Assembly: GCA_018262095.1 (NCBI GenBank)
Contig: JAGTRW010000032.1
Location: 1-45,159 of the forward strand
Length of the DNA stretch: 45,159 nt
Source of the DNA: Pseudomonadota bacterium
GTDB lineage: Bacteria > Pseudomonadota > Gammaproteobacteria > Burkholderiales > Rhodocyclaceae
Direction of reading: 5' to 3'
Below are positions 8,354 to 27,510 of the stretch, piece after piece (position 1 is the first letter of the stretch; every line of letters starts with the position of its first letter). Made by a program: the position numbers and the translations under genes. The notes below the pieces were generated by a model. The model saw only the letters and a list, made by a program, of their open reading frames with translations, was not told where the DNA came from and made no database searches.

Positions 8354-10108
8354 ATGGGCGGCAACGATTCATTTGACAAACAGGCTTTCGCCGTCGATCT
8401 GACCGGAGTCAGAACCTACGAGGGCTTGCTGGCGGCGTTTGAGCAGCGCTTCGACCCCTTCGGCGTGACCACCTCGATGCTCAACGCGCAGGCCGCGTGG
8501 CTGATGCATCCGCAGGAGTTGTCGCGGGCGGTGAGCGCCGCGTCGGGCGATATTCTGGCCTTGCAGACGCACCTGATGCGCCGCGCGCTGGGCATGCCGA
8601 GCCACGACGTGATCAAGCCGCACGCCGATGACGCGCGTTTCGCCGATCCGGTGTGGTCCGATGCGGCGACCTGGGACATCATCAAGGAGTCGTATCTGGC
8701 CTTGACGCACCGGCTTGAGGACATGCTCTTCGAAACGCCCGGTCTGTCCGACAAGGAACGTCGGCGCGCCGCATTCTGGGCCAGAGAATGGCTCAACGCG
8801 ATGGCGCCGACCAATTTCCTGTTCACCAACCCGGTTGCCCTGCGCAAGTGCGTGCAGACGCGTGGCGAAAGCCTCAAACAGGGCTTCAAGCACCTGCTGC
8901 GCGACATCGAGGCGAAAAACATCCGCATGGTCGAAGCCGACGCCTTCACCGTCGGCGTCGATCTGGCGACGACACCAGGCCGCGTCGTTTTTCGCAACCG
9001 CCTGCTCGAACTGATCCACTACACGCCGACGACCGCCCAGGTGCATGCGACGCCGATCGTCTTCATCATGCCGTGGATCAACAAGTTCTACATCCTCGAC
9101 CTGACGCCCAGGAAGAGCCTGGTCAAGTACCTCACCGACCACGGTTACAGCGTCTTCATCACCAGCTGGAAGAATCCGACGGCAGAGATGGCCGACGTCA
9201 CTTTTGACGACTACCTGCACGAAGGCGTCGACCAGGTCGTCGGCACGGTGCGCCAGCTCTGCCAGGCTGAACAGGTGCACCTCACCGGCTACTGCATCGG
9301 CGGCACGCTGGTGACGACCTATATGGCCTGGGCCAGCCGCCACTACGGCGAGAAACACATGCCGGTCGCCCACTGGACCTTGTTCACCACGCTCACCGAT
9401 TTTTCCAGGCCCGGCGACATCGACGTCTTCATCGACGAGGCCGCGATTCGTTCGCTCGAAGCGAAAATGGCGAAAACCGGCTATTTGCCCGGCGACGACA
9501 TGGCCTCGAGCTTCCGTCTGCTGCGCTCGAACAGCCTGGTCTGGCACTACTTCGAGCTAAGCTACCTGTTCGGCGAGCCGCTGCCGGCGTTTGACGTGCT
9601 GTTCTGGAATATGGACACGACGCGCATGCCTGCGGCGATGCACTCCTACTACCTGCGCCAGATGTACCTGCACAACAACCTGATGAAGCGCGATGCGCTG
9701 ACCATCGCCGGCGAGCCGATCGACCTCGACCGCATTACCCAGCCGCTCTACGCGGTCAGCGCCGAGGACGACCACATCGTCCCCTGGCGCCAGTCGTATC
9801 GCGTGCGAAAATACATCAACGTCAAGGCCCGCGTGCGTTTCGTGCTGTCCACCTCGGGCCATATCCTGGGCATCGTCAATCCGCCGGTCAGTCCGCCCAA
9901 GCGCAGTTTCTGGGTCGCCGAACCCGAGCGCAACGAGCATTTCGAGCACTGGCAGGGGCGCGCCGAAAAAACCTCGGGATCGTGGTGGGACGACTGGCTG
10001 GCCTGGCTTTCGCCGCAATGCGGGCCGCTGCTCGCGCCGCCAGACACCAAGGCGGCGAGCTATCCCGATCTTGGCGCGGCGCCCGGCACCTACGTTTTCG
10101 AGAAATAA
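8354..10108 (+). CDS. phaC: Class I poly(3-hydroxyalkanoate) synthase PhaC
   Basis: Polymerises (R)-3-hydroxyacyl-CoA into PHA storage granules. The 584-residue length is typical of class I synthases. The N-terminal PhaC_N domain covers about residues 80-250 and is followed by an alpha/beta-hydrolase core. The lipase-like box GYCIGG carries nucleophile Cys314; the general base pair is Asp473 (EDDHIVP) and His503 (SGHILGIVNPP), spaced as in the Cupriavidus enzyme. GGGGAGAA ahead of the ATG is a good ribosome binding site. No phaA or phaB is adjacent, but a MaoC-type hydratase fusion that could supply hydroxyacyl-CoA lies 1.5 kb downstream. Confidence 0.95.
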   Translation: MGGNDSFDKQAFAVDLTGVRTYEGLLAAFEQRFDPFGVTTSMLNAQAAWLMHPQELSRAVSAASGDILALQTHLMRRALGMPSHDVIKPHADDARFADPVWSDAATWDIIKESYLALTHRLEDMLFETPGLSDKERRRAAFWAREWLNAMAPTNFLFTNPVALRKCVQTRGESLKQGFKHLLRDIEAKNIRMVEADAFTVGVDLATTPGRVVFRNRLLELIHYTPTTAQVHATPIVFIMPWINKFYILDLTPRKSLVKYLTDHGYSVFITSWKNPTAEMADVTFDDYLHEGVDQVVGTVRQLCQAEQVHLTGYCIGGTLVTTYMAWASRHYGEKHMPVAHWTLFTTLTDFSRPGDIDVFIDEAAIRSLEAKMAKTGYLPGDDMASSFRLLRSNSLVWHYFELSYLFGEPLPAFDVLFWNMDTTRMPAAMHSYYLRQMYLHNNLMKRDALTIAGEPIDLDRITQPLYAVSAEDDHIVPWRQSYRVRKYINVKARVRFVLSTSGHILGIVNPPVSPPKRSFWVAEPERNEHFEHWQGRAEKTSGSWWDDWLAWLSPQCGPLLAPPDTKAASYPDLGAAPGTYVFEK

Positions 10109-11327: not shown

Positions 11328-11613
11328 GACGGCGTCAGCCCGGCTTAAGGCTTGCCCGCAGGGCATGTCGCTCGCGATGCAATAAATATTTTGCATGCTG
11401 CAGCGCAGCAGATTACAATTCCCGGCATAATTCGAAAAATCGATCGCTGCGTATCCCGGCTTCAGGAGTACGCGGCAAAAGGCAGGCGTCGCAAAGAACG
11501 CCAGCGACCTCAGCTGCGCCGCTGGCGATTGCTGCAGGCGAGTTTCCGACTGAAATGGCTATCGGCACTACGTGCCTTCGTGCGGTTGAACGGGTCTTTT
11601 TCGGAGCTTGATG
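11328..11613 (+). promoter_or_regulatory. Promoter and operator region of the MaoC-Pta gene
   Basis: A -35 box TTGCAT (11391-11396) and a -10 box TACAAT (11414-11419) are 17 bp apart. An AT-rich imperfect palindrome at 11377-11396 (outer arms ATGCAA/TTGCAT) covers the -35 box. Inside the spacer, CTGC-AGC-GCAG (11398-11408) fits the remembered PhaR pattern CTGC-N3-4-GCAG, so both look like repressor sites. The predicted leader is about 190 nt and contains an 8-bp hairpin (11499-11506 with 11520-11527). No gene is convincing in this stretch. Confidence 0.5.
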
Positions 11614-13035
11614 ATGCGCATTGAAACTCACCAGCATTTCCTTGAAAGCCGGATTTTCGACGAGATCCACATCGGCGACAGTTCGTCACTGGTGCGCTCG
11701 CTGCGCGCCGAAGACGTCAAGCTCTTCGCTATCATGTCCGGCGACATGAATCCGGCGATCGGCGACCAGGAATTCGCCAACAGCGGCATGTTCCGCGAGG
11801 TCATCGCGCACGGGATGTGGAGCGCCTCGCTGATCTCGACCGTGCTCGGCACGCAATTTCCCGGGCCGGGAACGGTCCTGGTCGACCAGGCGCTGCATTT
11901 TGCGCAGCCGGTTCGGCTTGGCGACACGATTACCGTGACGGTCATGGTCAAACAGATGTTCGTGCACAACCAGCACATCATCTTCGACTGCTCGTGCATC
12001 AATCAGGACGGCATGCAGGTGGTGCACGGCACCGCCGAAGTGCTGGCGCCGGCCGAGAAGGTGATCACCAAACGCGTCAATCTGCCGGACATCACCATTT
12101 CGGACAAGTTCGCGCGCCTGCAAACGCTGGTCTCGCGGGCCAAGGGGCTGGCGCCGATCGACATGGCGGTGGTCCATCCGTGCGACCTCGAATCGCTCAA
12201 AGGCGCGCTGATGGCCGCCGAAGCGGGATTGATCGACCCCATCCTGATCGGTCCCGAGCCGAAAATTCGCGCCATCGCCGCCGAATTCGGGCTCGACCTC
12301 AAACAACACCGCATCGTCAACGTCAAGCACAGCCACGAGTCGGCGGCGATGGCCGTGACGCTGATCCGCAACGGCGACGCCGAGGCGCTGATGAAGGGCA
12401 GCCTGCACACCGACGAGTTGATGGCCGAAGTCGTCTCACGCGCCGCCGGCCTGCGCACCGCGCGGCGCATCAGCCACGTTTTCCTGATGGACGTACCGAC
12501 CTACCCGCGACCGATCCTGATCACCGACGCGGCGATCAATATCGCGCCGACGCTCGAAGAAAAAGTGCATATCATCCAGAACGCCGTCGACTTCGCGCAC
12601 ATCATCGGCATCGCCGAACCGAAAGTGGCGATTCTCTCGGCGGTCGAAACCGTCAATCCCAAGATCCAGTCCACGCTCGACGCCGCCGCGCTATGCAAGA
12701 TGGCCGACCGCGGCCAGATCACCGGCGGCCTGCTCGACGGCCCGCTGGCCTTCGATAACGCAGTGTCGATCGAAGCGGCCAAGACCAAGGGGATCAATTC
12801 GGTGGTCGCTGGCCGCGCCGAAATCCTCGTCGTCCCCGACCTCGAATCGGGCAATATGGTCGCCAAGCAGCTCGAATACCTGGCCAACGCGTTGACCGCC
12901 GGCATCGTTCTCGGCGCCAAGGTGCCGATCGTACTGACCAGTCGCGCCGACACCGCCGAGACGCGCATCGCCTCGTGCGTGATCGCCACGCTGATCGCCC
13001 ACGCCAACCGCAACAACGCCCTGACGCCTGAATAA
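11614..13035 (+). CDS. Bifunctional MaoC-type enoyl-CoA hydratase / phosphate acyltransferase
   Basis: A 473-residue fusion. Residues ~10-155 form a MaoC/hot-dog hydratase domain (AIMSGDMNPAIGD near residue 40, then REVIAHGMWSASLIS near residue 65); these motifs are typical of (R)-specific enoyl-CoA hydratases. Residues ~165-470 form a phosphotransacetylase/phosphotransbutyrylase domain (e.g. LMKGSLHTDELM and the Gly-rich GGLLDGPLAFDNAVS). The expected reactions are hydration of enoyl-CoA and exchange of acyl-CoA with acyl phosphate. The ATG at 11614 is preferred because CGGAG at 11602-11606 is 7 nt ahead; TTG at 11608 is too close to it. With phaC upstream, a role in making hydroxyacyl-CoA or recovering acyl-CoA energy is plausible. 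Confidence 0.88.
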   Translation: MRIETHQHFLESRIFDEIHIGDSSSLVRSLRAEDVKLFAIMSGDMNPAIGDQEFANSGMFREVIAHGMWSASLISTVLGTQFPGPGTVLVDQALHFAQPVRLGDTITVTVMVKQMFVHNQHIIFDCSCINQDGMQVVHGTAEVLAPAEKVITKRVNLPDITISDKFARLQTLVSRAKGLAPIDMAVVHPCDLESLKGALMAAEAGLIDPILIGPEPKIRAIAAEFGLDLKQHRIVNVKHSHESAAMAVTLIRNGDAEALMKGSLHTDELMAEVVSRAAGLRTARRISHVFLMDVPTYPRPILITDAAINIAPTLEEKVHIIQNAVDFAHIIGIAEPKVAILSAVETVNPKIQSTLDAAALCKMADRGQITGGLLDGPLAFDNAVSIEAAKTKGINSVVAGRAEILVVPDLESGNMVAKQLEYLANALTAGIVLGAKVPIVLTSRADTAETRIASCVIATLIAHANRNNALTPE

Positions 13036-16427: not shown

Positions 16428-19202
16428 ATGAACCCGCTCATCGCTGCCCTGCGCGCACACCTGCCTGCCGATCGCGTCATCACTGACGAGTTGCGGCGGC
16501 TCGCCTGGGGTAGCGACGCCAGTTTCTACCGGCTGCTGCCCGAAGTCGTCGTGGTCGTCGATAGCGAGGACGAGGTCGCGCAGGTGCTGGCGGTGGCGCG
16601 GCAGCACGCGCTCCCGCTGACCTTCCGCGCCGCCGGCACCAGCCTCTGCGGGCAGGCGATCAGCGACGGTATCCTGGTCCTGCTCGGCGACGGCCTGGCC
16701 GGCTTTGAGCTCGCGCCCGATGCGGAGACTGTGCGTCTCGGACCGGCGATCGTCGGCGGCGAGGTCAACCGGCGCCTGGCCCCGTTCGGGCGCAAGATCG
16801 GCCCCGATCCGGCGTCGATCGCCACCTGCAAGATCGGCGGCATCGCCGCCAACAACGCCTCGGGGATGTGCTGCGGAACCGCGCAGAACAGCTACCGCAC
16901 GCTCGTCGGCCTGCGCGTCATGCTCGCCGACGGCAGCGTCGTCGACAGCCAGGACGCGGCCAGCGTCGCCGCGTTTCGCCAGAGCCACGCGGCGCTGCTC
17001 GGCGAGCTCGCGCGCCTGGGCGAGGAGGTCCGCGCCGACGCCGCGCTCGCCGCGCGCATCGAGAAGAAATACAAGATCAAGAACACCACCGGCTACAGCC
17101 TCAACGCGCTGATCGATTACGCCGACCCGATCGACATCCTGACGCACCTGATGATCGGCTCGGAAGGCACGCTCGGCTTCATTTCGCGCATCACCTACCG
17201 CACCGTCGCCGAGGAAGCGTGCAAGGCCAGCGCACTGATCTTTTTCCCGGATATCGCCACCGCTTGCCAGGCGGTGGTCGGCCTCAAATCCCGGCCGGTG
17301 GCCGCGGTCGAGCTGCTCGACCGCGCGGCGCTGCGCAGCGTCGAAAACCAGCCCGGACTGCCCGCGCTGATCCGTACGCTCGGTGAGACGGCGAGCGCGC
17401 TGCTGGTCGAGGTCCGCTCGCCCCACCCTGACGGGCTGCAAGCCAACATCGACGCGGCGCTGACGGCGATCGCCGGAATCGCGACGATCGAAGCGGCGCA
17501 GTTCGCGCGCGATGCGCAAACCTGCGAGACGTACTGGAAGGTACGCAAGGGAACCTTCCCATCGGTCGGCGCCATGCGGCGCAGCGGCACGACGGTGATC
17601 ATCGAGGACGTCGCCTTTCCGGTCACCGCGCTCGCCAGCGCGATAGTCGACCTGCAGGTGCTCTTCAGGCAGCACGGCTACCACGAGGCGATCATCTTCG
17701 GCCACGCGCTCGAGGGCAATCTGCACTTCGTATTCACCCAGGATTTCGGCGACCCCGCCGAGGTGGCGCGCTACGCCGGCTTCATGGAGGCGCTCTGCCG
17801 CCTGGTGGTCGACGACTACGACGGATCGCTCAAGGCCGAGCATGGCACCGGTCGCAACATGGCGCCTTTCGTCGAGATGGAATGGGGGCGACAGGCGACC
17901 GACCTGATGCGCCGCATCAAGGCGCTCTTCGATCCGGAAAACCTGCTCAATCCGGGAGTCATTCTCAACGACGACGCCGCGGCGCACCTCAAGCACTTGA
18001 AACCGATGCCGGCGGCCGACGCGCTGGTCGACCGCTGCATCGAATGCGGCTTTTGCGAACCGCTCTGTCCTTCGCACCAGCTCACGCTGTCGCCACGCCA
18101 GCGTATCGTCGGCTGGCGCGAAATCGCACGTCGTCGCGCGGCGGGTGAGCACGAGGGCCGCGCGCTGGTCGAGGACTACCGTCATTTTGGCCTCGACACC
18201 TGCGCCGGCTGCGGGCTGTGCTCGACCGCCTGCCCGGTCGGCATCAATACCGGCGAACTGATCCGCCGCCTGCGCGGCCTCGCGCACGGCCCGGTCGAGC
18301 GCCGCGTCGGCCGCCTCGCCGGCGAACACTTCGGCCTCTTCGCGGCCGGCGCCCGCCTGGGCTTGCGCATCGCTCACCAGGCGAGCGCGGTGTTCGGCGA
18401 CCCGGCGCTCGCCCGACTCTCGGGTGGCGCCTGGCAGCTGCCGATGCCGCGCGCCGGAAAAGCACTCAAGCTCCGTGCCGGGCAAGGCGATCCGGTGGTC
18501 TACTTCCCAGCCTGTGGCGGGCGCATTTTTGGTCCGAGCAGCGAGGCAGAAGCCGAACTCGGCGAGGTCATCTTGCAACTGCTGGTCCGCGCCGGCTACG
18601 CGCCGCGTTTGCCGCAGGATTACGCCGCGCTATGCTGCGGCCAGATGTTCGCCAGCAAGGGTCTGGCCGAAGTCGCAGAGGCCAGCGCTGCCCGGCTCGA
18701 GGACGCGCTCAGGGCCGCCAGCGACGACGGGCGATACCCGATCATCATGGACGCCAGCAGTTGCAGCGCGCGCATGCAAGCGTACCTGGCCGGCCGTCTA
18801 CCGCTCCTCGACTTTCACGAATTCGCCCACGACGCACTGTTACCCAGGCTACGGCTCACCCGGCAGCGCGGGCCCATCGCCCTGCACATCAACTGCAGCG
18901 TGCGCCAGAGCAGCTCGGCCGCCAAGCTGCAAAAGCTGGTCAGCGCCTGCGTCGAGCAGGTCGTCGAACCGGCCGGGGTGAACTGCTGCGGTTTTGCCGG
19001 CGATCGCGGCTTCGTCGTACCCGAACTCAACCGCCACGCGCTACGCAAGCTCGGCGACGAGCTTCCTGAAGATTGCCGCTGCGGTGTCTCGAGCAATCGC
19101 ACCTGCGAGATCGGGCTCTCCACGCAAAGCGGACGCAGCTACCGCTCGGTCGCCTACCTGCTCGAAGAATGCAGTCGCGACATAAGCCCCGGCGCTTGCT
19201 GA
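16428..19202 (+). CDS. FAD- and Fe-S-binding oxidoreductase, D-lactate dehydrogenase (Dld-II) type
   Basis: A 924-residue fusion. Residues ~35-250 form the PCMH-type FAD domain ([13 protein letters not shown], then [14 protein letters not shown]). Residues ~250-530 form the FAD-linked oxidase C-terminal domain, with the substrate/FAD motifs [10 protein letters not shown] and [13 protein letters not shown]. Next come two 4Fe-4S motifs, [13 protein letters not shown] and [14 protein letters not shown] (about 538-605), and two CCG domains ([20 protein letters not shown]). This layout is that of respiratory D-lactate or D-2-hydroxyacid dehydrogenases feeding quinone or cytochrome. The exact substrate is inferred from the family. 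It stands alone, with a degraded chemoreceptor end on the opposite strand directly after it. Confidence 0.85.
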
Positions 19203-19258
19203 GGCGTTTGGCCCGCACGCCACAAAGCCAGGCCCGGTAGTCTTTGCCCCGCCCCGCG

Positions 19259-19515
19259 TCAGATCCGGAAGCGCGCGACCGACTGACCAAACCGCTGATC
19301 GGGTCGGTTGCCTTACCGATTCGTTCGGCCAGCTTGCGCACCTCGTCGGCGACCACCGCGAAACCGCGTCCCCGCTCGCCAGCGCGCGCCGCCTCGATGG
19401 CGGCGTTGAGCGCCAGAAGGTTGGTCTGATCGGCGATTTCCTTGATCACCCGAGCAATCCCGCCGATTTCGCGCGAGCGCTCGCAAGCCGCGTAACTACC
19501 CGTTGCTGAAATTCA
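19259..19515 (-). pseudogene. Remnant of a methyl-accepting chemotaxis protein
   Basis: Read on the minus strand, 19515 to ~19306 encodes the signalling tip of a chemoreceptor: [20 protein letters not shown], then [12 protein letters not shown], then [23 protein letters not shown] stop lies directly upstream at 19513-19515, so the periplasmic and HAMP parts are missing. After KAT the frame breaks, and a typical receptor ending (QSVARFRI-stop, 19259-19285) appears in another frame, implying an internal deletion. It is not functional. Confidence 0.8.
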
Positions 19516-19879
19516 GGACAAGCGGCGGAACCGGGCGCCCCCGGTTGAAGCCGCGATCAGTTCCGCTCGACATCGAAGGCCTTAGCAGATCATTCGAGAA
19601 CAGAACGAGATGATGAATTGCAATGACTTGCGCCCCGATCAAAAGCGGCCGAGAATCGCGACGGGGGTCAAAGTAAAGAGAGCGGTTTGAGCGACTGCGT
19701 GAGTCGTCGGTCGTTTCGAAAAAAAGCCGCGCGCGTCGCAGGCGATCGAGCCAGCGATGCAACAGCCGATGATTCTCGCCAAGCAGCGAAAGATCGAGCG
19801 TCGCCGGACAGCGCTCTGCGCCGACCGTTTGCTGCCCGAAAGCAAAGAAAACCAACGAGGTCATCGAGGGGGGCAGCGG
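19516..19879. other. Gene-free junction upstream of the hydrogenase operon
   Basis: No confident gene or promoter was found here. A hairpin lies near 19529-19565 (inner arms AACCGGG/CCCGGTT, outer arms GCGGC/GCCGC). A 122-residue frame on the minus strand (19864 to 19496) has no ribosome binding site and no recognisable homology. The stretch looks like eroded DNA between the chemoreceptor scar and the hydrogenase genes. The hydrogenase promoter probably lies here but was not identified, and I saw no good FNR or sigma54 site. Confidence 0.5.
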
Positions 19880-21898
19880 ATGAACAGATCGGTTTATGGT
19901 GTCTGGGACGGAAAGGTTCACGACTTCCGCCTCATCGAACTTGGCGAGCAACCCGCCGTATTGACCGGGCTCGACGACTTTGCTCCGCACAACGAAACGA
20001 AGGCATTCATTGCCGACCGGGGTTTTCTGGTCTTTGACCGGGACATGAGCCTGGTCGAAGCGTTCAGCCAGTACCTGAGTCAGGCCGCCAGGGAATCCTG
20101 CGGCCGCTGCGCGCCCTGCCGCGTCGGCACGCAAAGGATGCGCGACCTGCTGCAGAAGTTCTCGGCGGGATTGACCGCCAACGGCATCCTCGATGACATC
20201 AAGGAAATCGCCGAACAAGTCGCCGAAACCTCGCTGTGCGGCATGGGGCAATCGTGCGCCAAGGCGTTGCTCGATGCCTTGCACTATTTCAGCGACGAGT
20301 TCAAACCGCTGAAACCGGCGCAGGCCATTTTCCAGCACAGTTTCGTCTATACCACGGCGCCGTGCATCGAAGCGTGTCCATCCAAGGTCGATGTGCCCAA
20401 GTACATCGACGGCGTCAAAGGCGGCAAGTTCGACTTTGCACTGGGCGTCATCCTTGACAAATACTCGATGGCGGCAAGCTGCGGCAGGGTTTGCGTACGC
20501 TTCTGCGAAATCGCCTGCCGCCGGCGAAGTGTGGAAGGCGCGGTCGGCATCCGCATGCTCAAGCGCTACGCCGCCGATCAGGCAATTGCCAACGACCGGC
20601 TGCGCTTTACCAAAAGTCCGATCCGGCGCAACCAGCGCGTGGCGGTGATCGGCGCCGGCCCGGCCGGAATCACCTGCGCCTACAAGCTCTTGCTCGAAGG
20701 CTTCCAGGTCGACGTTTTCGACGCACAGAAAACCGCCGGCGGAATGGCGTCGATCGGAATTCCCAGCTATCGACTGCCCAAGGACGTGCTCAAGGCCGAA
20801 ACCGAAGACGTCGTCCGCCAACTGGGCGGTCATTTCTTCTACGGCAAGGTGCTCGGCGAAGACTTCACCGTCGATGACCTGCAGGACAAGGGCTACGACG
20901 CGGTCTTCCTGGCTTATGGCGCGAGCCGCGGCAGTCTGCTCGGCATCCGCAACGAAGACCCGAAACTCGCGGGCTACGCCTCCGGCGTCGATTTCCTGCT
21001 CAAGGTGCACCAGCATGTCGAGCACGGCGAGCCTTTCGCAGTAACGGGAGACGTCATCGTCGTCGGCGGCGGCAACGTCGCGATGGACTGCGTTCGCTCG
21101 GCGCGGCGCATGGGCGCGCGATCGGTGCATCTCATCTATCGCCGAACCGTCGAGGACATGCCGGCCGAAGACGACGAAATCGTCGCTGCGCAGCGCGAAG
21201 GCATCGTCTTCCACTGCCTGACCAACCCGTCCGGCTTGGTCGTCGAAGACGCCCAGGTGCGCGGCGTTGAGCTGGTCAGCATGCGCCAGACCGAGCTTGA
21301 TTCGCGCGGACGGCGCAGCGTTGAGGCGCTGCCCGATTCGGGCTTCTTGATGCGCTGCGACCTACTGGTCGCGGCGATCGGCCAGCAAGTCGAGCCGTCC
21401 GTTCTCAAGCCCGAAGACGGCATCGAACGCGATCGCTGGAACTGCATCACGGTCGATCCCGACACGCTTGAGACCTCGCGCCAAGGCGTTTTCGCCGGCG
21501 GCGACTGCGTGCTCGGGCCATTGACGCTGGTCAATGCGCTCGATCATGGCGAGCGCGCCGCAGCGGCCATTCGCGACTATCTTGACGACGGCGAGGTGCG
21601 GATCAGGCCCGAGCGCCGGATGCAGAACTTTCTGGCCAAGAACAAGCTGTTTGCGGGCGAATGCCTCAAAACACCGCCCTTGCATCAGGACCCGGTGACG
21701 CTGCCAGAGCTCGACGCCAGTGAGCGCATCAAGCACTTCGGCGAAGTCGATCGCGTGATTTCGAAAGAAGACGCCTACGCCGAAGCCAGCCGCTGCCTGC
21801 GCTGCTATCGGCTCTACTCGGTCGTCACCGCCAAGCCGCTGCAACAGCCAGTCCGTGCCGCGCATAAAGAATCGACCTTTACGAGTAATCGTCCATGA
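19880..21898 (+). CDS. NuoF-type Fe-S module fused to GltD/NfnB-like NAD(P)H flavoprotein (hydrogenase partner)
   Basis: A 672-residue fusion. Residues ~45-145 match only the C-terminal part of NuoF/HydB: the cluster motif ESCGRCAPCRVG gives Cys74, Cys77, Cys80, and the fourth ligand is Cys120 (SLCGMG). The FMN/NADH-binding half of NuoF is absent. Residues ~150-245 form a GltD-type 4Fe-4S domain (Cys162, Cys166, and Cys201, 205, 209, 213). FAD motif GAGPAG lies at 258-263 and the NAD(P)H motif GGGNVAMD at 396-403. I chose the ATG at 19880 because GAGGGGGG is just ahead. The stop overlaps hydA (ATGA). It probably carries electrons between NAD(P)H and HydA; this resembles the GltD-linked hydrogenases classed as [FeFe] group A2. 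Confidence 0.85.
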   Translation: MNRSVYGVWDGKVHDFRLIELGEQPAVLTGLDDFAPHNETKAFIADRGFLVFDRDMSLVEAFSQYLSQAARESCGRCAPCRVGTQRMRDLLQKFSAGLTANGILDDIKEIAEQVAETSLCGMGQSCAKALLDALHYFSDEFKPLKPAQAIFQHSFVYTTAPCIEACPSKVDVPKYIDGVKGGKFDFALGVILDKYSMAASCGRVCVRFCEIACRRRSVEGAVGIRMLKRYAADQAIANDRLRFTKSPIRRNQRVAVIGAGPAGITCAYKLLLEGFQVDVFDAQKTAGGMASIGIPSYRLPKDVLKAETEDVVRQLGGHFFYGKVLGEDFTVDDLQDKGYDAVFLAYGASRGSLLGIRNEDPKLAGYASGVDFLLKVHQHVEHGEPFAVTGDVIVVGGGNVAMDCVRSARRMGARSVHLIYRRTVEDMPAEDDEIVAAQREGIVFHCLTNPSGLVVEDAQVRGVELVSMRQTELDSRGRRSVEALPDSGFLMRCDLLVAAIGQQVEPSVLKPEDGIERDRWNCITVDPDTLETSRQGVFAGGDCVLGPLTLVNALDHGERAAAAIRDYLDDGEVRIRPERRMQNFLAKNKLFAGECLKTPPLHQDPVTLPELDASERIKHFGEVDRVISKEDAYAEASRCLRCYRLYSVVTAKPLQQPVRAAHKESTFTSNRP

Positions 21899-23694
21899 AA
21901 GCTCACATCAACGGCAGGGAATTCTCCTTCGAGCACGACGAGACCATCCTCGAGGTCGCGCGAAAAAACGGGATTTTCATCCCGACGCTGTGCGAGCTCA
22001 ACGACATCGACCATGCGCCAGGCACCTGCCGGGTCTGCCTGGTCGAGGTCGATCGCCAGGACACCGTTGGGCCGCACTACGTGACGGCCTGCGACACGCC
22101 GCTCGGCGACGGCTGGAAGGTCATGACGCGGACGCCGAAGGTGCAGGAGATGCGCCAGCTGCAGATGGAACTGATCATGGCCGACCACCATCAGTCCTGC
22201 GCCTCGTGCCCGCGCAACGGCAATTGCGAGCTGTTGGCGACGGCCAATTCGGTCGGCCTCAAACAGGTGCGCTTCCACTATACGGAAGGCTGGGAAGATC
22301 TCGAACCGGACCACGGCAGCCAGCCGGTCATTTACGACCGCAGCCGCTGCATTCGTTGCCAACGCTGCGTCGCCGTCTGCCGCAAGATCCAGGATGTCGA
22401 TGCGCTGGAACTCGCCGGTTGGGGCAACGCCGCCGGAATCCGACTCAAGGGCGGCTCGGTGGCGGCATCGCCGTGCGTGACCTGCGGCCAGTGCGTGATG
22501 GTCTGTCCGACCGGCGCGCTCGCCGAGCGCGACCAGACCCAGGACGTCCTCGACTACCTGGCCGATCCGCAAATCGTCACCGTCTTCCAGACGGCGCCGG
22601 CGATCCGAGTCGGCATCGGCGAAGAGTTCGGACTGCCGGCGGGAACCAACGTCGAAGGCCAGATCATCGCCGCGCTGCGCCTGATGGGCGCCGATGTCAT
22701 CCTCGACACCAACTTTGGCGCCGACGTGGTGATCATGGAAGAGGGAACCGAGCTGCTCGGTCGTCTGAAAAAGAGCTATCGGCCGACCTTCACGTCCTGC
22801 TGCCCGGCGTGGATCAACTTCGCCGAGAAGCACTACCCGGAAATCCTGCCGCTGCTGTCGAGCACGCGCTCGCCGCAGGCGGTGATGGGCAAGATCGCCA
22901 AGACCTACCTGGCCGAAAAACGCGGCATCGATCCAAAGCAGATGCGCATGATCGCGATCATGCCATGCACCGCCAAGAAGGAAGAGGCTGCCCGCCCCGC
23001 ACTCGGCGAAAACGGCGTTCCGGACGTCGACATCGTGCTCACCATGCGCGAGTTCGCGCGCCTGCTGCGCCGCGAAGGAATCGACCTCAAGCTGCTCGAA
23101 CCGTCAGCCTACGACGATCCGCTGATGAGCGAGTACTCGGGCGCCGCGGCGATCTTTGGCACCACCGGCGGCGTCATGGAGGCGGCGGTGCGCACCATGT
23201 ACTACGTGGTCAACGGCAAGGAACTCGAACACATCGAGGTCGCGCAGCTGCGCGGCTTCGAGAACGTTCGCTCGGCCAACGTCGAGCTCGGCGGCGAGTA
23301 CGGTCAGATCAAGGTGGCGATGTGCCACGGCCTCAAGGGTACCCGCCAGCTGGTCGACGCCGTGCTGGCGGGCACCGCCGACTTCGACTTCATCGAAATC
23401 ATGGCCTGCCCGGGCGGCTGCGTCGACGGCGGCGGCACGCTGCGCTCGAAGAAGTCGTACATTCCGCATGCCATGATGCGCCGCGAGACGATGTTCGGCA
23501 TCGATCGAAAAACCAAGGTTCGCCAGTCGCACAACAACCAGCAGGTGCAAAAACTCTACGCCGACTTTCTCGGCGCGCCGCACTCCGAAAAAGCGCACCA
23601 GATGCTGCACACGCAGTACAGCGCCAGGCCCTGCGGGGTGATCGCCGACATCCAGGCGGCGTGGGACGAGCTCAAGAAACAGGGCGGGCGCTGA
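21895..23694 (+). CDS. hydA: [FeFe]-hydrogenase catalytic subunit (M3-type)
   Basis: Catalyses reversible H2 formation at the H-cluster; cytoplasmic, no signal peptide. The 599 residues run as follows: N-terminal 2Fe-2S domain (LCELNDIDHAPGTCRVC), His-Cys cluster HHQSCASCPRNGNC (about 98-111), two 4Fe-4S motifs (CIRCQRCVAVC and CVTCGQCVMVCP), then the H-domain. L1 is TSCCPAW with proton-transfer Cys302 and ligand Cys303. L2 is MPCTAKKEE with Cys358. L3 is EIMACPGGCVDGGG with Cys505 and Cys509. The small-subunit-like helix (LYADFLGAPHSEKAHQMLHT) is fused at the C-terminus. All H-cluster ligands are intact. It overlaps the flavoprotein gene and leads directly into the maturase genes. Confidence 0.96.
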   Translation: MKAHINGREFSFEHDETILEVARKNGIFIPTLCELNDIDHAPGTCRVCLVEVDRQDTVGPHYVTACDTPLGDGWKVMTRTPKVQEMRQLQMELIMADHHQSCASCPRNGNCELLATANSVGLKQVRFHYTEGWEDLEPDHGSQPVIYDRSRCIRCQRCVAVCRKIQDVDALELAGWGNAAGIRLKGGSVAASPCVTCGQCVMVCPTGALAERDQTQDVLDYLADPQIVTVFQTAPAIRVGIGEEFGLPAGTNVEGQIIAALRLMGADVILDTNFGADVVIMEEGTELLGRLKKSYRPTFTSCCPAWINFAEKHYPEILPLLSSTRSPQAVMGKIAKTYLAEKRGIDPKQMRMIAIMPCTAKKEEAARPALGENGVPDVDIVLTMREFARLLRREGIDLKLLEPSAYDDPLMSEYSGAAAIFGTTGGVMEAAVRTMYYVVNGKELEHIEVAQLRGFENVRSANVELGGEYGQIKVAMCHGLKGTRQLVDAVLAGTADFDFIEIMACPGGCVDGGGTLRSKKSYIPHAMMRRETMFGIDRKTKVRQSHNNQQVQKLYADFLGAPHSEKAHQMLHTQYSARPCGVIADIQAAWDELKKQGGR

Positions 23695-23736: not shown

Positions 23737-25146
23737 ATGAGCCAATACCCGACCAGTGACTGGCTGCGCGCCGGCGAGGTTGATGAGCTTCTCCAAGGCG
23801 CAGTTCGCGACGACGCGAAAATTCGCGACGTGCTGCACAAGGCGCGCGAACTCAAGGGCCTCAGCCTGGCCGAGGTGGCGACGCTGTGCCAGATCGCCGC
23901 GCCGCAACAGATCGAAGAATTGTTCGCCACCGCGCGCAGCGTCAAGGCGCAGATTTATGGACAGCGAATGGTCCTCTTCGCGCCGCTCTACATTTCCAAC
24001 GTCTGCGGCAACGAATGCACCTACTGCGCCTTTCGCAGCTCGAACAAGGCCTTGCCGCGCGTCGCGCTTAAGCGCGCCGAAATTCAAAGCGACACCGCCG
24101 AGCTGATCCGTCAGGGGCACAAGCGCCTGCTGCTGGTCGCCGGCGAAGGCTACTCGGCAGCCAACGGCGGTTTTCAGTACATTCTCGACGCCATCGCCTC
24201 CGTCTATGACGTCACCGAGGCGTCCGGCAACATCCGCCGGCTCAACGTCAACCTGGCGCCGCTCGAGGTCGATGAGTTCCGCCAGCTCAAGCAAGCCGGC
24301 ATCGGCACCTACCAGCTGTTCCAGGAAAGCTATCATCGCAACACCTACGCCGCGGTGCACCTCTCCGGCAAGAAGCGCGATTTCGACTGGCGCGCATCAG
24401 CGCTCGACCGCGCCATGCAGGCCGGCGTCGACGACGTCGGCATGGGCCTGCTGCTCGGACTGCACGACTGGCGTTTCGAGCTGCTGAGCCTGATGCAGCA
24501 TATCGGCCACCTCGAACAGCGGTTCGGTGTCGGCTGCCACACCGTCAGCGTTCCGCGCATCGAGCCCGCCGATTCTTCCGCGCTGTCGATGGCGCCGCCG
24601 GCGCCGGTTTCCGATGCCGACTTCCGCAAGATCATCGCCATCTTGCGCCTGGCGGTTCCCTACACCGGAATCATCCTGTCGACGCGCGAATCGGCGCCAA
24701 TCCGCCGCGAATGCTACGCGCTCGGCGTCTCCCAGATTTCCGCGGGCAGCCGTACCAATCCGGGCGGATACAGCGCAGGCGAGACTGGCCACCAGCACGC
24801 AGCCGGCCAGTTCCAGCTCGGCGATCATCGCCGGCTGGAAGAGGTGGTCGACGAACTGGCGCAGCTCGGTTTCATCCCGTCGTTCTGTACCGCCTGCTAC
24901 CGCCTGGGTCGCACCGGGCGCGACTTCATGGATCTGGCCAAGCCCGGCCTGATCCGGCAGAAGTGCGATCCCAATGCGCTGACGACCTTCCAGGAATACC
25001 TGCTCGACTTTGCCCCGCAGGCCGTTTGCTCGAGCGGCGAGGACGCCATCGATCGAGCGCTCGAGGCAATGAGCGCCAGGCCGCGCCGGACGGCCGAGCG
25101 GATGCTGGCCAAGATCCGCTGCGGCAAGCGCGACGTGTGCTGCTGA
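23737..25146 (+). CDS. hydG: [FeFe]-hydrogenase maturase HydG (radical SAM tyrosine lyase)
   Basis: Cleaves tyrosine to supply CO and cyanide as an Fe(CO)2CN unit for the H-cluster. The 469 residues have the radical-SAM motif CGNECTYC (Cys90, Cys94, Cys97) followed by AFRSSN. The auxiliary cluster motif is CTAC (Cys384, Cys387) followed 22 residues later by Cys410, exactly the CX2CX22C spacing of HydG and absent from the tyrosine lyase ThiH. The gene starts 42 bp after hydA, with GGAG about 10 nt ahead of the ATG. Confidence 0.95.
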   Translation: MSQYPTSDWLRAGEVDELLQGAVRDDAKIRDVLHKARELKGLSLAEVATLCQIAAPQQIEELFATARSVKAQIYGQRMVLFAPLYISNVCGNECTYCAFRSSNKALPRVALKRAEIQSDTAELIRQGHKRLLLVAGEGYSAANGGFQYILDAIASVYDVTEASGNIRRLNVNLAPLEVDEFRQLKQAGIGTYQLFQESYHRNTYAAVHLSGKKRDFDWRASALDRAMQAGVDDVGMGLLLGLHDWRFELLSLMQHIGHLEQRFGVGCHTVSVPRIEPADSSALSMAPPAPVSDADFRKIIAILRLAVPYTGIILSTRESAPIRRECYALGVSQISAGSRTNPGGYSAGETGHQHAAGQFQLGDHRRLEEVVDELAQLGFIPSFCTACYRLGRTGRDFMDLAKPGLIRQKCDPNALTTFQEYLLDFAPQAVCSSGEDAIDRALEAMSARPRRTAERMLAKIRCGKRDVCC

Positions 25147-25177
25147 GGCGATCGCCATACTGACTTAAAGGATCGAC

Positions 25178-26413
25178 ATGCTCGAAGCCCCCAAGGCGCT
25201 GCGCCTGCACATCGGACTCTTCGGTCGCCGCAACAGCGGCAAGTCGACGCTGATGAATGCCTTGATCGGACAATCGATTTCGATCGTCTCCGACCAGCCC
25301 GGAACCACCACCGACCCCGTCGAAAAGGCCTTCGAACTCGCGCCGATCGGTCCGGTAGTGTTCATCGATACCGCCGGTTTCGACGATCAGGGCGCGCTCG
25401 GCGAACTGCGCGTCAAGAAGACCCGCGACGTTCTCGAACGCGTCGATATCGGGCTGGTCGTCGTCGGCGAGCAAGGGCTGGGTGGGTTTGAACTGGCGCT
25501 GATTGCCGCGCTGCGCGAGGCGCAAACGCCGCTGCTGGTGGTCTTCAACAAAGGCGATCTGGCGTCCCCGACGCCCGACCAGCTGGCGCAGCTCGAGCGC
25601 GACGCGATTGACGCCGTCGCCATCTGCGCCGTGCACGCGAGCGGCATCGACCGTCTCAAGGAAGCGCTGTTCCGCCTGGCGCCCGACGCCGGCAGCGAAG
25701 CGCCGCGTCTGGTCGGCGACCTGATCGGGCCGGGCGACCTGGTCGTGCTGGTGGTGCCGATCGATCTGGGCGCACCCAAGGGCCGGCTGATCCTGGCTCA
25801 GGTGCAGACGCTGCGCGACATCCTCGACAGCGACGCGGTGAGCCTGATGGTCAAGGAAAGCGAACTCGCTACAGCGCTCTCGCAGATGACCGCCAAGCCT
25901 GCGCTGGTGATCTGCGATTCGCAGGTGGTGCTCAAGGTCGCAGCGGAAACGCCGCCCGGGATACGCATGACGACCTTTTCGATCTTGATGGCGCGCTTCA
26001 AGGGCGAGATGCTCGGACTCGCCGCCGGCGCCGGCGCCATCTCGCGGCTCAAGCCCGGCGACCGGGTGCTGATCGCCGAAGCGTGTTCGCACCATCCGCT
26101 GGCCGACGACATCGGCCGCGTCAAGCTGCCGCGCTGGCTGCAGCAGTACGCTGGCGGTGCGCTCGATATCGACGTCAGGTCGGGCAACGATTTTCCCGAA
26201 GACCTCGCGCCGTACGCGCTGATCGTTCAATGCGGCGGCTGCACGGTGACGCGCAAGCAGATTCTGGTTCACCAATACCGCGCGGCGCGCCAGGGTGTTC
26301 CGATGACCAACTACGGCATGGCCATCTCGGTGTCGCAAGGCGTCATCGAACGCGCGCTCGAATGCTTCCCCGCGGCGTGGAACGCCTATCGGCAAGGCGT
26401 CACCGGAGGCTGA
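25178..26413 (+). CDS. hydF: [FeFe]-hydrogenase maturation GTPase / scaffold HydF
   Basis: HydF assembles the 2Fe subcluster and delivers it to HydA. The 411 residues contain an N-terminal GTPase domain: P-loop GRRNSGKS (16-23), TT in the switch I area (PGTTTDP), DTAGFDD and NKGD. A dimerisation domain and a C-terminal cluster-binding domain follow. Cluster ligands are Cys303 with His305 (CSH) and Cys352/Cys355 (CGGC). The residue before CGGC is Gln351 where many HydF proteins have His. AAAGGA precedes the ATG, and hydE starts 2 bp after the stop. Confidence 0.94.
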   Translation: MLEAPKALRLHIGLFGRRNSGKSTLMNALIGQSISIVSDQPGTTTDPVEKAFELAPIGPVVFIDTAGFDDQGALGELRVKKTRDVLERVDIGLVVVGEQGLGGFELALIAALREAQTPLLVVFNKGDLASPTPDQLAQLERDAIDAVAICAVHASGIDRLKEALFRLAPDAGSEAPRLVGDLIGPGDLVVLVVPIDLGAPKGRLILAQVQTLRDILDSDAVSLMVKESELATALSQMTAKPALVICDSQVVLKVAAETPPGIRMTTFSILMARFKGEMLGLAAGAGAISRLKPGDRVLIAEACSHHPLADDIGRVKLPRWLQQYAGGALDIDVRSGNDFPEDLAPYALIVQCGGCTVTRKQILVHQYRAARQGVPMTNYGMAISVSQGVIERALECFPAAWNAYRQGVTGG

Positions 26414-26415
26414 CG

Positions 26416-27510
26416 ATGACCGCCACTGTCTCGGGCGAAGCGCTGGCGGCCAGGCTTGCCTTTGGCCCCCCCGATCGCGAACTGCTGCGCCAGATTCTCA
26501 GTACGCAACAGCCCGACGAAATCGAAACCATCCGCCGCGCCGCCGAACAGACGCTGCTTGAAAATCACGGCGATGCCGTCCGCTTGCGCGGACTGATCGA
26601 GTTCTCCAACCGCTGCAGTTCGGACTGCCGCTACTGCGGAATCCGGCGCAGCAACCGCCAACTTGACCGCTACACGCTGACGCTCGGCGAGATCGTCGAG
26701 GCCGCCAGTTGGTGCGCGCAGCGGGGCTACGGATCGATCGTGCTGCAAGCGGGAGAACGACGAGATGCCAAGTTCACCCGCTTGGTCAGCGCAGCGGTCC
26801 GCGCCATCAAAGCAGCCACCGAGTCGCCGACGCTGCCGCGCGGCGTCGGCATTACGCTGTGCGTCGGCGAGCAGTCAGCCGACACCTACGCCGAATGGTT
26901 CGCTGCCGGCGCGCACCGCTACCTGCTGCGCATGGAAACCTCATCGCCCGAACTGTTCGCCGCGCTGCACCCGCCAAGCCAGACCTGGAGTTCGCGGCTA
27001 CAGTGCCTGAAGAGCCTGAAGACGCTCGGCTACCGAGTCGGCACCGGGGTCATGATCGGCTTGCCGGGGCAGAGCCTCGACGATCTGGTCGACGACCTCA
27101 TTTTCTTCCGCGACATCGGCGCCGACATGATCGGCATGGGACCTTACATCGCGCATGAACACGCTGTTTTGCCAGGCGGTGCGGCGATTCCCGACGGCGC
27201 AACGCGCCTGCAACTGGCGCTGCGAATGATCGCCGCCGCCCGCCTGCTGCTGCCCCGGATCAACATCGCCGCGACCACCGCGCTGCAAACGCTGGCGCCC
27301 GACGGCCGCGAACAGGGACTGCGTTTCGGCGCCAACGTCATCATGCCGCAGGCCACGCCCAATCGTGTTCGCCGCCTGTACACGCTCTACGATGGCAAAC
27401 CCTGCCTCGACGACAGCGCCAAGCAGTACGCAGCCTGTCTCGAAACGCGGATCAGCTCGGTCGGCAGACGGATTATCAGCAATGACTGGGGAGATCCGGC
27501 AAAGCACTGA
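26416..27510 (+). CDS. hydE: [FeFe]-hydrogenase maturase HydE (radical SAM)
   Basis: HydE works with HydG and HydF to build the bridging dithiolate of the H-cluster. The ATG at 26416 is chosen because CGGAGG lies just ahead and the N-terminus then fits the family (364 residues); an earlier in-frame start would overlap hydF by 330 bp. The radical-SAM motif CSSDCRYC gives Cys67, Cys71 and Cys74, followed by GIRRSN. Later elements MIGLPGQSLDDLVDDL and NVIMPQATPNRVR fit HydE and the related biotin synthase fold. The second, optional C-terminal cluster motif is not complete. It is the last gene of the hydrogenase operon. Confidence 0.94.
   Translation: MTATVSGEALAARLAFGPPDRELLRQILSTQQPDEIETIRRAAEQTLLENHGDAVRLRGLIEFSNRCSSDCRYCGIRRSNRQLDRYTLTLGEIVEAASWCAQRGYGSIVLQAGERRDAKFTRLVSAAVRAIKAATESPTLPRGVGITLCVGEQSADTYAEWFAAGAHRYLLRMETSSPELFAALHPPSQTWSSRLQCLKSLKTLGYRVGTGVMIGLPGQSLDDLVDDLIFFRDIGADMIGMGPYIAHEHAVLPGGAAIPDGATRLQLALRMIAAARLLLPRINIAATTALQTLAPDGREQGLRFGANVIMPQATPNRVRRLYTLYDGKPCLDDSAKQYAACLETRISSVGRRIISNDWGDPAKH

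Follow-up and report, generated by a model that had tools for sequence, protein, structure and literature searches.

A predicted two-subunit NADP(H)-linked [FeFe]-hydrogenase in a Propionivibrio-like member of the Rhodocyclaceae

In HydDB, group A2 of the [FeFe]-hydrogenases is named 'glutamate synthase-linked (putative)', with its role given as undetermined, and it is assigned from the downstream gene (PMC5037454). A rumen study treats the A2 enzymes of Sharpea, Olsenella, and Oribacterium as functionally unresolved (PMC6776011), and the naming of groups varies, CpI being called group A2 in PMC9431212. Here, we describe a gene pair with a likeness to group A2 from a Propionivibrio-like genome (Pseudomonadota bacterium, Rhodocyclaceae; GCA_018262095.1, contig JAGTRW010000032.1, positions 1–45,159; this whole stretch of 45,159 nucleotides is called the window). 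One gene encodes a flavoprotein that fuses a NuoF-type N3 [4Fe-4S] module to a GltD-type domain (N3-GltD), and the other is hydA. The two products probably form a two-subunit, non-bifurcating [FeFe]-hydrogenase linked to nicotinamide adenine dinucleotide phosphate (NADP(H)), as judged from their sequences.

Comparable pairs are known in other bacteria, and the betaproteobacterial lineage appears to be a variant of these, with an activity that we infer. In the 2012 genome paper of Pelobacter carbinolicus, HndD-1 (Pcar_2502) lies beside the SfrB-like Pcar_2503 and was predicted to be NADPH-linked (PMC3543383). As in the window, an [FeFe]-hydrogenase adjoins an SfrB-like one-protein NADPH oxidoreductase, its proposed partner. 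However, that pair belongs to another bacterial lineage, is a prediction itself, and is likened here by description and not by sequence. The NADP-dependent formate dehydrogenase of Moorella thermoacetica (FdhAB; sfrB2/sfrA2/fdhF3) contains a 76 kDa beta-subunit encoded by sfrB2, and the purified enzyme was described with NADPH as the only reductant (PMC13040438). The beta-subunit MOTH_2314 carries Fe-S, ferredoxin-like, and NADP domains (PMC5736913). This domain set is like that of the window fusion, and the gene order is matched in two relatives described below (L120 and L123), whereas the partner is a molybdopterin formate dehydrogenase instead of HydA, and the likeness is again by description and not by sequence. 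The StnABC/NfnABC enzymes (8oh5 of Sporomusa ovata, 9bov of Caldicellulosiruptor, and 9n5u of Thermococcus sibiricus) share the C-terminal CxxC of GltD and the Lys at the proximal cluster. In contrast to the window proteins, their GltD forms one chain with NuoG and supplies a separate flavin mononucleotide (FMN) bifurcating core, and they have no H-cluster. A hexameric NADP-reducing [FeFe]-hydrogenase of M. thermoacetica is reportedly in print. It has H2 and NADP(H) as substrates like the window pair, but is hexameric, unlike the predicted two-subunit enzyme. Extracts of M. thermoacetica exhibit NADP-reducing hydrogenase activity (PMC13040438). In the open-licence literature searched, no paper on this pair in Betaproteobacteria was found, and none on Propionivibrio with FeFe.

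The fusion gene was located at 19880–21898 on the + strand (672 amino acids, aa) from the list of open reading frames (ORFs), Pfam, and alignments with relatives. The hydA gene, which encodes an M3-type group A [FeFe]-hydrogenase of 599 aa, follows at 21895–23694 on the same strand with a 4-bp overlap. The ATG at 19880 was preferred over an alternative start at 19757 (713 aa) because the N-termini of relatives agree with it. Three maturase genes complete the + strand order of fusion gene, hydA, hydG, hydF, and hydE (maturases at 23737–27510). These are hydG (23737–25146; TIGR03955, 485.5 bits), hydF (25178–26413; TIGR03918, 526.9 bits), and hydE (26416–27510; TIGR03956, 315.2 bits), each over its cut-off. 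The start of hydE was inferred; its mechanical ORF opens upstream, at 26083. The gene pair is real and not a product of chance, which was ruled out by the match strengths (E down to 5e-208) and the conserved pairing. A remnant pseudogene was considered and rejected: the 672-aa frame is open, the pair is conserved, and the ligands are invariant.

The N3 module of the fusion protein covers residues 62–142 (20063–20305, +; NADH_4Fe-4S, PF10589, E 6.7e-23). Its ligands C74, C77, C80, and C120 were invariant in all ten aligned rows, window included, and in 42 of 42 rows of the larger alignment. The NuoF fragment reached 58.7 bits against the TIGR01959 cut-off of 558.65, and the fusion protein gave no Pfam match to the FMN/NADH domain of NuoF. 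It is followed by a Fer4_20 module at residues 159–238 (20354–20593, +; PF14691), which holds C162, C166, C205, C209, C213, and K228, and by a flavin adenine dinucleotide (FAD)/NAD(P)-binding domain at residues 253–557 (20636–21550, +; Pyr_redox_2, PF07992) with the motifs GGGNVA (396–401) and YRR (420–422). The C-terminal CLRC (C639 and C642; 21794–21805, +) was placed by HMMER alignment to residues 2–46 of 5jca_L. An earlier reading of the window from its letters only (the sequence-only reading) had described a 672-residue partner with the NuoF Fe-S module (C74/77/80/120), no FMN/NADH domain, and a GltD-type flavoprotein, which Pfam and the ten rows bore out; it had overlooked two further [4Fe-4S] sites of the GltD part and the adjoining hydG, hydF, and hydE. 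The fusion thus combines NADH_4Fe-4S, Fer4_20, and Pyr_redox_2 in one chain with no FMN domain, which is our working definition of an SfrB/FdhB-type adaptor, likened to Geobacter SfrB and MOTH_2314 by description only.

Seven Cys (C162, C166, C205, C209, C213, C639, and C642) and K228 make up eight predicted ligands in the GltD part, which would suffice for the two further [4Fe-4S] sites. C639 and C642 align with the N-terminal CLQC of NfnB, and their C-terminal displacement is the same as in StnC. K228 aligns with StnC K170, where NfnB shows Glu, and V172 occupies the position of StnC C114. In StnC, K170 is a ligand of the FAD-proximal cluster, at which bifurcating NfnB uses Glu, and the GltD domain relays NADPH electrons without bifurcating (PMC10482914). 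K228 and YRR were kept in 42 of 42 aligned flavoprotein rows. Because K228 matches StnC K170 and is conserved together with YRR, the GltD domain appears to be of the non-bifurcating StnC kind. The best sequence and fold matches of the fusion were the StnABC/NfnABC proteins (8oh5, 9bov, and 9n5u).

This domain is also homologous to bifurcating NfnB, and R298 of the fusion aligns with NfnB R201 and StnC R239. A GltD FAD that bifurcates or confurcates, with NADPH and reduced ferredoxin jointly making H2, would fit both observations. However, the proximal cluster shows Lys instead of the Glu ligand of the bifurcating NfnB type, and the FAD of StnC, a protein that shares this Lys and Arg, is not a site of bifurcation (PMC10482914). 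Furthermore, the operon proteins scanned with Pfam and NCBIfam included no FMN core, no NuoE/HydC-like protein, and no NfnA-like protein. Bifurcation is rather unlikely because of this missing FMN core or NuoE-like gene and the StnC-type Lys in place of the NfnB Glu.

HydA displayed the full M3 modules in Pfam (Fer2_4, NADH-G_4Fe-4S_3, Fer4_7, Fe_hyd_lg_C, and Fe_hyd_SSU). Its N-terminal accessory clusters, one [2Fe-2S], one His-ligated [4Fe-4S], and two [4Fe-4S], are encoded at 21904–22521 (+; Pfam and alignments), the H-cluster domain at 22579–23433 (+; Fe_hyd_lg_C, PF02906, E 2.8e-85), and the C-terminal Fe_hyd_SSU segment at 23476–23628 (+; PF02256). HydA passed the group A model TIGR02512 with 494.6 bits over a cut-off of 405.95. 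The motifs TSCCP, MPC, and MACPGGC and the accessory-cluster Cys and His aligned with solved [FeFe]-hydrogenases, namely 7q4v and 'Iron hydrogenase 1', which we take to be A. woodii HydA1 and CpI, respectively. The best PDB match was 7q4v HydA1. These ligands were invariant in 9 of 9 rows, window included, as were C303, C358, C505, and C509, presumably the H-cluster ligands. The alignments confirmed the claim of the sequence-only reading that HydA has all H-cluster ligands and four accessory cluster motifs.

In the proposed complex of the two proteins, NADPH would donate a hydride to the FAD of the GltD domain. Single electrons would pass from FAD to the nearby [4Fe-4S] (three Cys and Lys228), to the second [4Fe-4S] (with the C-terminal CLRC), to the N3-type [4Fe-4S] of the NuoF remnant, and from there via the clusters of HydA to the H-cluster. 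The NuoF remnant would have been retained as a docking piece for the NuoG-like N-terminus of HydA, like N3 in complex I. The reaction would be reversible, either disposing of NADPH as H2 or forming NADPH from H2. A chain from NAD(P)H over FAD and Fe-S clusters to HydA had already been suggested in the sequence-only reading and is supported as read from the domains, while the choice between NADPH and NADH and the matter of bifurcation, which that reading had left open, were narrowed by inference toward NADPH and away from bifurcation. NADPH is favoured as the cofactor because of the GltD/StnC-type site and because the same architecture stands beside a Moorella-type NADP-dependent formate dehydrogenase. 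At an E' of -370 mV (PMC13040438), NADPH could drive H2 to about 3.3 kPa, and NADH at -280 mV (PMC9304861) to about 3 Pa. Given this difference in attainable H2, an NADPH-linked enzyme could serve without ferredoxin.

Genome searches scored the best few first-look candidates per genome (3 or 4), and neighbours were read within the fetched stretches rather than across whole genomes. The source genome comprises 4.8 Mb in 82 contigs. The near matches that bear a name, with 69–73% identity, came from two Propionivibrio metagenome-assembled genomes, P. dicarboxylicus DSM 5885, and Paludibacterium yongneupense. P. dicarboxylicus DSM 5885, a cultured relative, carries the pair as well (L033). In the same family, 33 of 150 genomes had a HydA match at E 1e-30; 27 of these matched only over about the N-terminal 200 residues (NuoG/HoxU type), and six had a catalytic-domain HydA, five of them with the pair. 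G141, of the same genus, gave no HydA match in this search. Across the order (Burkholderiales in GTDB), the HydA profile matched at E 1e-90 in 14 of 399 genomes, in agreement with the rarity noted in the sequence-only reading. Eleven of these, the source genome included, carry the pair; G767 and G894 have HydA with no pair in the stretch read, and G747 gave a partial match. Two of the eleven (G868 and G675) contain a second HydA without an adaptor nearby. The fusion itself was matched at E 1e-120 in 1 of 274 genomes of the class, which was the source genome, and at E 1e-100 in 2 of 398 genomes of the phylum, the source genome and G150. The G150 relative is 35% identical and has no HydA in the 19 kb read.

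Within the betaproteobacterial flavoprotein lineage, HydA lay directly downstream on the same strand in all 20 rows, window included. The gap ranged from -4 to +26 bp from projected starts, with the hydA of L083 truncated by the locus end. Because either partner served as the query in finding these loci, the figure may be slightly biased.

Additional hydrogenase genes were observed in this group. In L042/L043 (G109, same family), the compact pair occurs together with a second HydA that adjoins a NuoF-type protein and has its own hydG, hydF, and hydE. In L083 (G906, P. yongneupense), another contig carries the pair a second time, and the ORF just upstream reads by eye as hydE. On contig C1 of the source genome, a [NiFe]-hydrogenase large subunit gene and a HoxU/NuoG-like ORF are separated by about 5 kb. 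NifJ gave no match above the cut-off in the source genome, which says little about ferredoxin use.

Of 249 genomes from the phylum to which a Ruminococcus belongs, at least 194 gave a match at E 1e-90, many of them confined to the GltD part. The gene neighbourhood was read for 20 flavoprotein matches and for 20 HydA matches. The former comprised 11 long NuoF-GltD proteins (about 990–1060 aa), four compact proteins paired with HydA, and five compact proteins not so paired. The long proteins have a homologous N3-GltD part and HydA directly downstream in nine complete cases; for the other two, the contig ends nearby and HydA is truncated or not visible. Unlike the window protein, they retain the whole FMN/NADH domain and so could bifurcate. 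A long NuoF-GltD beta subunit was noted in Vallitalea guaymasensis (PMC6163223). The four paired compact proteins (621–634 aa) lie upstream of HydA. A plasmid scan returned seven records, one of which, from Collinsella, covered most of the query. In Collinsella aerofaciens (L169), a compact protein with the Pfam architecture of the window fusion is followed by a gene annotated as [FeFe] hydrogenase, group A.

Six flavoprotein rows were not paired with HydA, and four of them adjoin a NuoG-like N-terminus (L119, L120, L121, and L123). In L123 and L120, a formate dehydrogenase gene lies directly downstream of a compact N3-GltD gene whose product is 39–40% identical to the window protein. The formate dehydrogenase of L123 was read through an in-frame TGA (residue 355), and the same gene is split in L120; the neighbouring N3-GltD protein of L123 has the Pfam architecture of the window fusion. 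The compact protein of L119 adjoins a NuoG-like protein in the domain scan, and that of L121 a protein whose N-terminus is NuoG-like and whose remainder is lost at the contig end. For L048 and L122, the stretch read contained no NuoG-like neighbour. HydA is present elsewhere in the genomes of L120 (G1068; L133) and L121 (G916; L189). The N3-GltD protein of L122 (G908) stands beside an operon that reads by eye as complex I, for which it might be the NADPH input.

Relatives such as L048 and L122 would suit two enzymes with no more than the operon in common, namely a HydA linked to ferredoxin and a flavoprotein acting independently as an NADPH oxidoreductase. CpI, which has the same cluster set, works with ferredoxin. 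However, the pair is adjacent in 20 of 20 lineage rows, a NuoG-like N-terminus lies beside four of the six rows that lack a paired HydA, and the retained N3 module has no evident use beyond docking to a NuoG-like partner. We consider two separate enzymes very improbable.

Unrooted trees were built from 56 HydA rows and 42 flavoprotein rows. Excluded from the HydA tree were L045, L077, L078 (catalytic part only), L083, L131, L132, and L170 (truncated, incomplete, or with the partner not in view). In this tree, the 19 HydAs of the betaproteobacterial lineage formed one clade (100/100), and five other compact-linked HydAs, from Collinsella and four genomes, formed another (100/100). NuoF-linked and long-fusion-linked HydAs were intermixed elsewhere. 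The window HydA falls outside the NuoF-linked HydAs of the sample in the tree for which the sequence-only reading had called. In the flavoprotein tree, the Collinsella-type compact proteins grouped with the long fusions (100/100), the window lineage stood apart as its own clade (100/100), and one side of a branch held the six rows without a paired HydA (95/88). The branch leading to the Collinsella-type compact rows is long (1.11), and support for placing them within the long fusions is weak (83/96 and 80/96). A single clade of all compact hydrogenase-linked flavoproteins was rejected (approximately unbiased test, p 0.004), the group having been named after the tree was seen. The two trees do not tell quite the same story, because the two compact-linked sets of HydA jointly share one side of a branch, weakly (66/22). 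The window lineage may have arisen from an SfrB/FdhB-type adaptor, by loss of the FMN domain from a long fusion, or as an old compact form; the unrooted tree leaves all three. At residue 201 (20480–20482), all 36 compact and long rows have Cys and the six rows not paired with HydA have Leu; the catalytic part of HydA is visible next door in 34 of the 36. This C201 pattern speaks for kinship among the hydrogenase-linked flavoproteins.

Several observations weigh against an NADP(H)-linked, non-bifurcating hydrogenase. Five of the 42 flavoprotein rows (34–40% identity) have no HydA next door, and a sixth (L121) is cut at the contig end. The adaptor family as a whole is not hydrogenase-specific. 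Close relatives of the fusion occurring apart from any hydrogenase, which the sequence-only reading had named as counting against it, are seen in part, and HydA is next door in all 20 rows of the lineage itself. The extra Cys at C201 could alter the proximal cluster. The fold model of the fusion is mediocre: pLDDT (predicted local distance difference test) was 38.5 from the single sequence and 60.5 from eight rows, with values below 50 from residue 576 on. The activity, the complex, and the cofactor are all predicted from sequence. The YRR/GGGNVA site indicates GltD kinship, and its preference for NADP over NADH is putative. In addition, the highest NCBIfam score of HydA, 692.1 bits, belonged to the NADH-dependent group A6 model (NF040763), below its curated cut-off of 765.

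This last score raises the case of the same complex with NADH as the physiological donor, as in the group A6 hydrogenases, and R421/R422 by themselves are no proof of NADP specificity. Nevertheless, the A6 score lies under the cut-off, the FMN/NADH domain of NuoF is missing, and the NAD(P) site belongs to the GltD/StnC type. NADH as the physiological donor is thus unlikely in our estimate, and NADPH remains the preferred cofactor.

The sequence-only reading had compared the pair to group A2. The likeness stands, since the Collinsella pair (L169) and the A2 enzymes of HydDB also have a GltD-type flavoprotein adjoining a group A HydA. Membership does not follow from it. HydDB places a GltA/GltD-type domain immediately downstream of HydA, whereas hydG is downstream in the window and the GltD protein is upstream; a literal A2 assignment was rejected on this ground. 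HydDB also expects an A2 partner other than NuoF; the window partner has no FMN domain but retains a NuoF fragment. The flavoproteins of the Collinsella type also differ from the window lineage: they group outside it, together with the long fusions of NuoF and GltD. In the bifurcating HydABC enzymes (group A3, Bfu type 1), HydA has the same accessory clusters, but the group is defined by an operon with HydC and a HydB that carries the FMN/NADH domain; the window operon has neither the HydB FMN core nor HydC. A bifurcating A3 enzyme with its FMN subunit encoded elsewhere in the genome was set aside as less likely, since the fusion already supplies the N3 site on which that subunit would rely.

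In the HydDB table, a possible role of A2 enzymes is to reduce NAD with H2 in support of glutamate synthase (PMC5037454). A hydrogenase working mainly in uptake, with NADPH as its product for uses such as biosynthesis or glutamate synthase, would agree with this suggestion and with a reversible chemistry. On the other hand, no glutamate synthase large-subunit domain was found among the neighbouring proteins scanned, which represent part of the window ORFs, and the direction is not readable from sequence. A mainly uptake role is quite unlikely in our view, and a reversible NADP(H)-linked hydrogenase is retained.

A broader proposal, which we advance tentatively and would not call probable, has two parts that would hold together. 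N3-GltD would be a general NADPH plug that docks via N3 onto any NuoG-like N-terminus, and the betaproteobacterial lineage would be a strictly NADP-specific, non-bifurcating two-subunit enzyme whose flavoprotein stands apart from the Collinsella type, so that 'group A2' would not be one kind of enzyme.

If the assignment is true, a two-gene version without the FMN core would be a very simple enzyme joining NADPH and H2, and the pair could decide the matter of NADPH use without ferredoxin in GltD-linked hydrogenases of this kind. It would also suggest how a NuoF fragment can persist solely to bridge electrons and to dock, and Propionivibrio-like betaproteobacteria would join the possible H2 makers.

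Other genes of the window were noted upstream of the operon. A short ORF at 19027–19449 (-) encodes the conserved tip of a methyl-accepting chemotaxis signalling domain (PF00015, profile 42–97 of 172). The rest of the domain is missing, and the ORF, which sits between an FAD-linked oxidase gene and the hydrogenase operon, is probably a remnant. The oxidase (16428–19202, +; 924 aa) consists of FAD_binding_4 and FAD-oxidase_C domains fused to Fe-S and CCG domains; it is GlcD/YdiJ-like, yet far under the curated cut-offs of those models. A MaoC-phosphotransacetylase fusion (PRK08190) is encoded at 11608–13035 (+), and a class I-like PhaC lies nearby at 8354–10108 (+).

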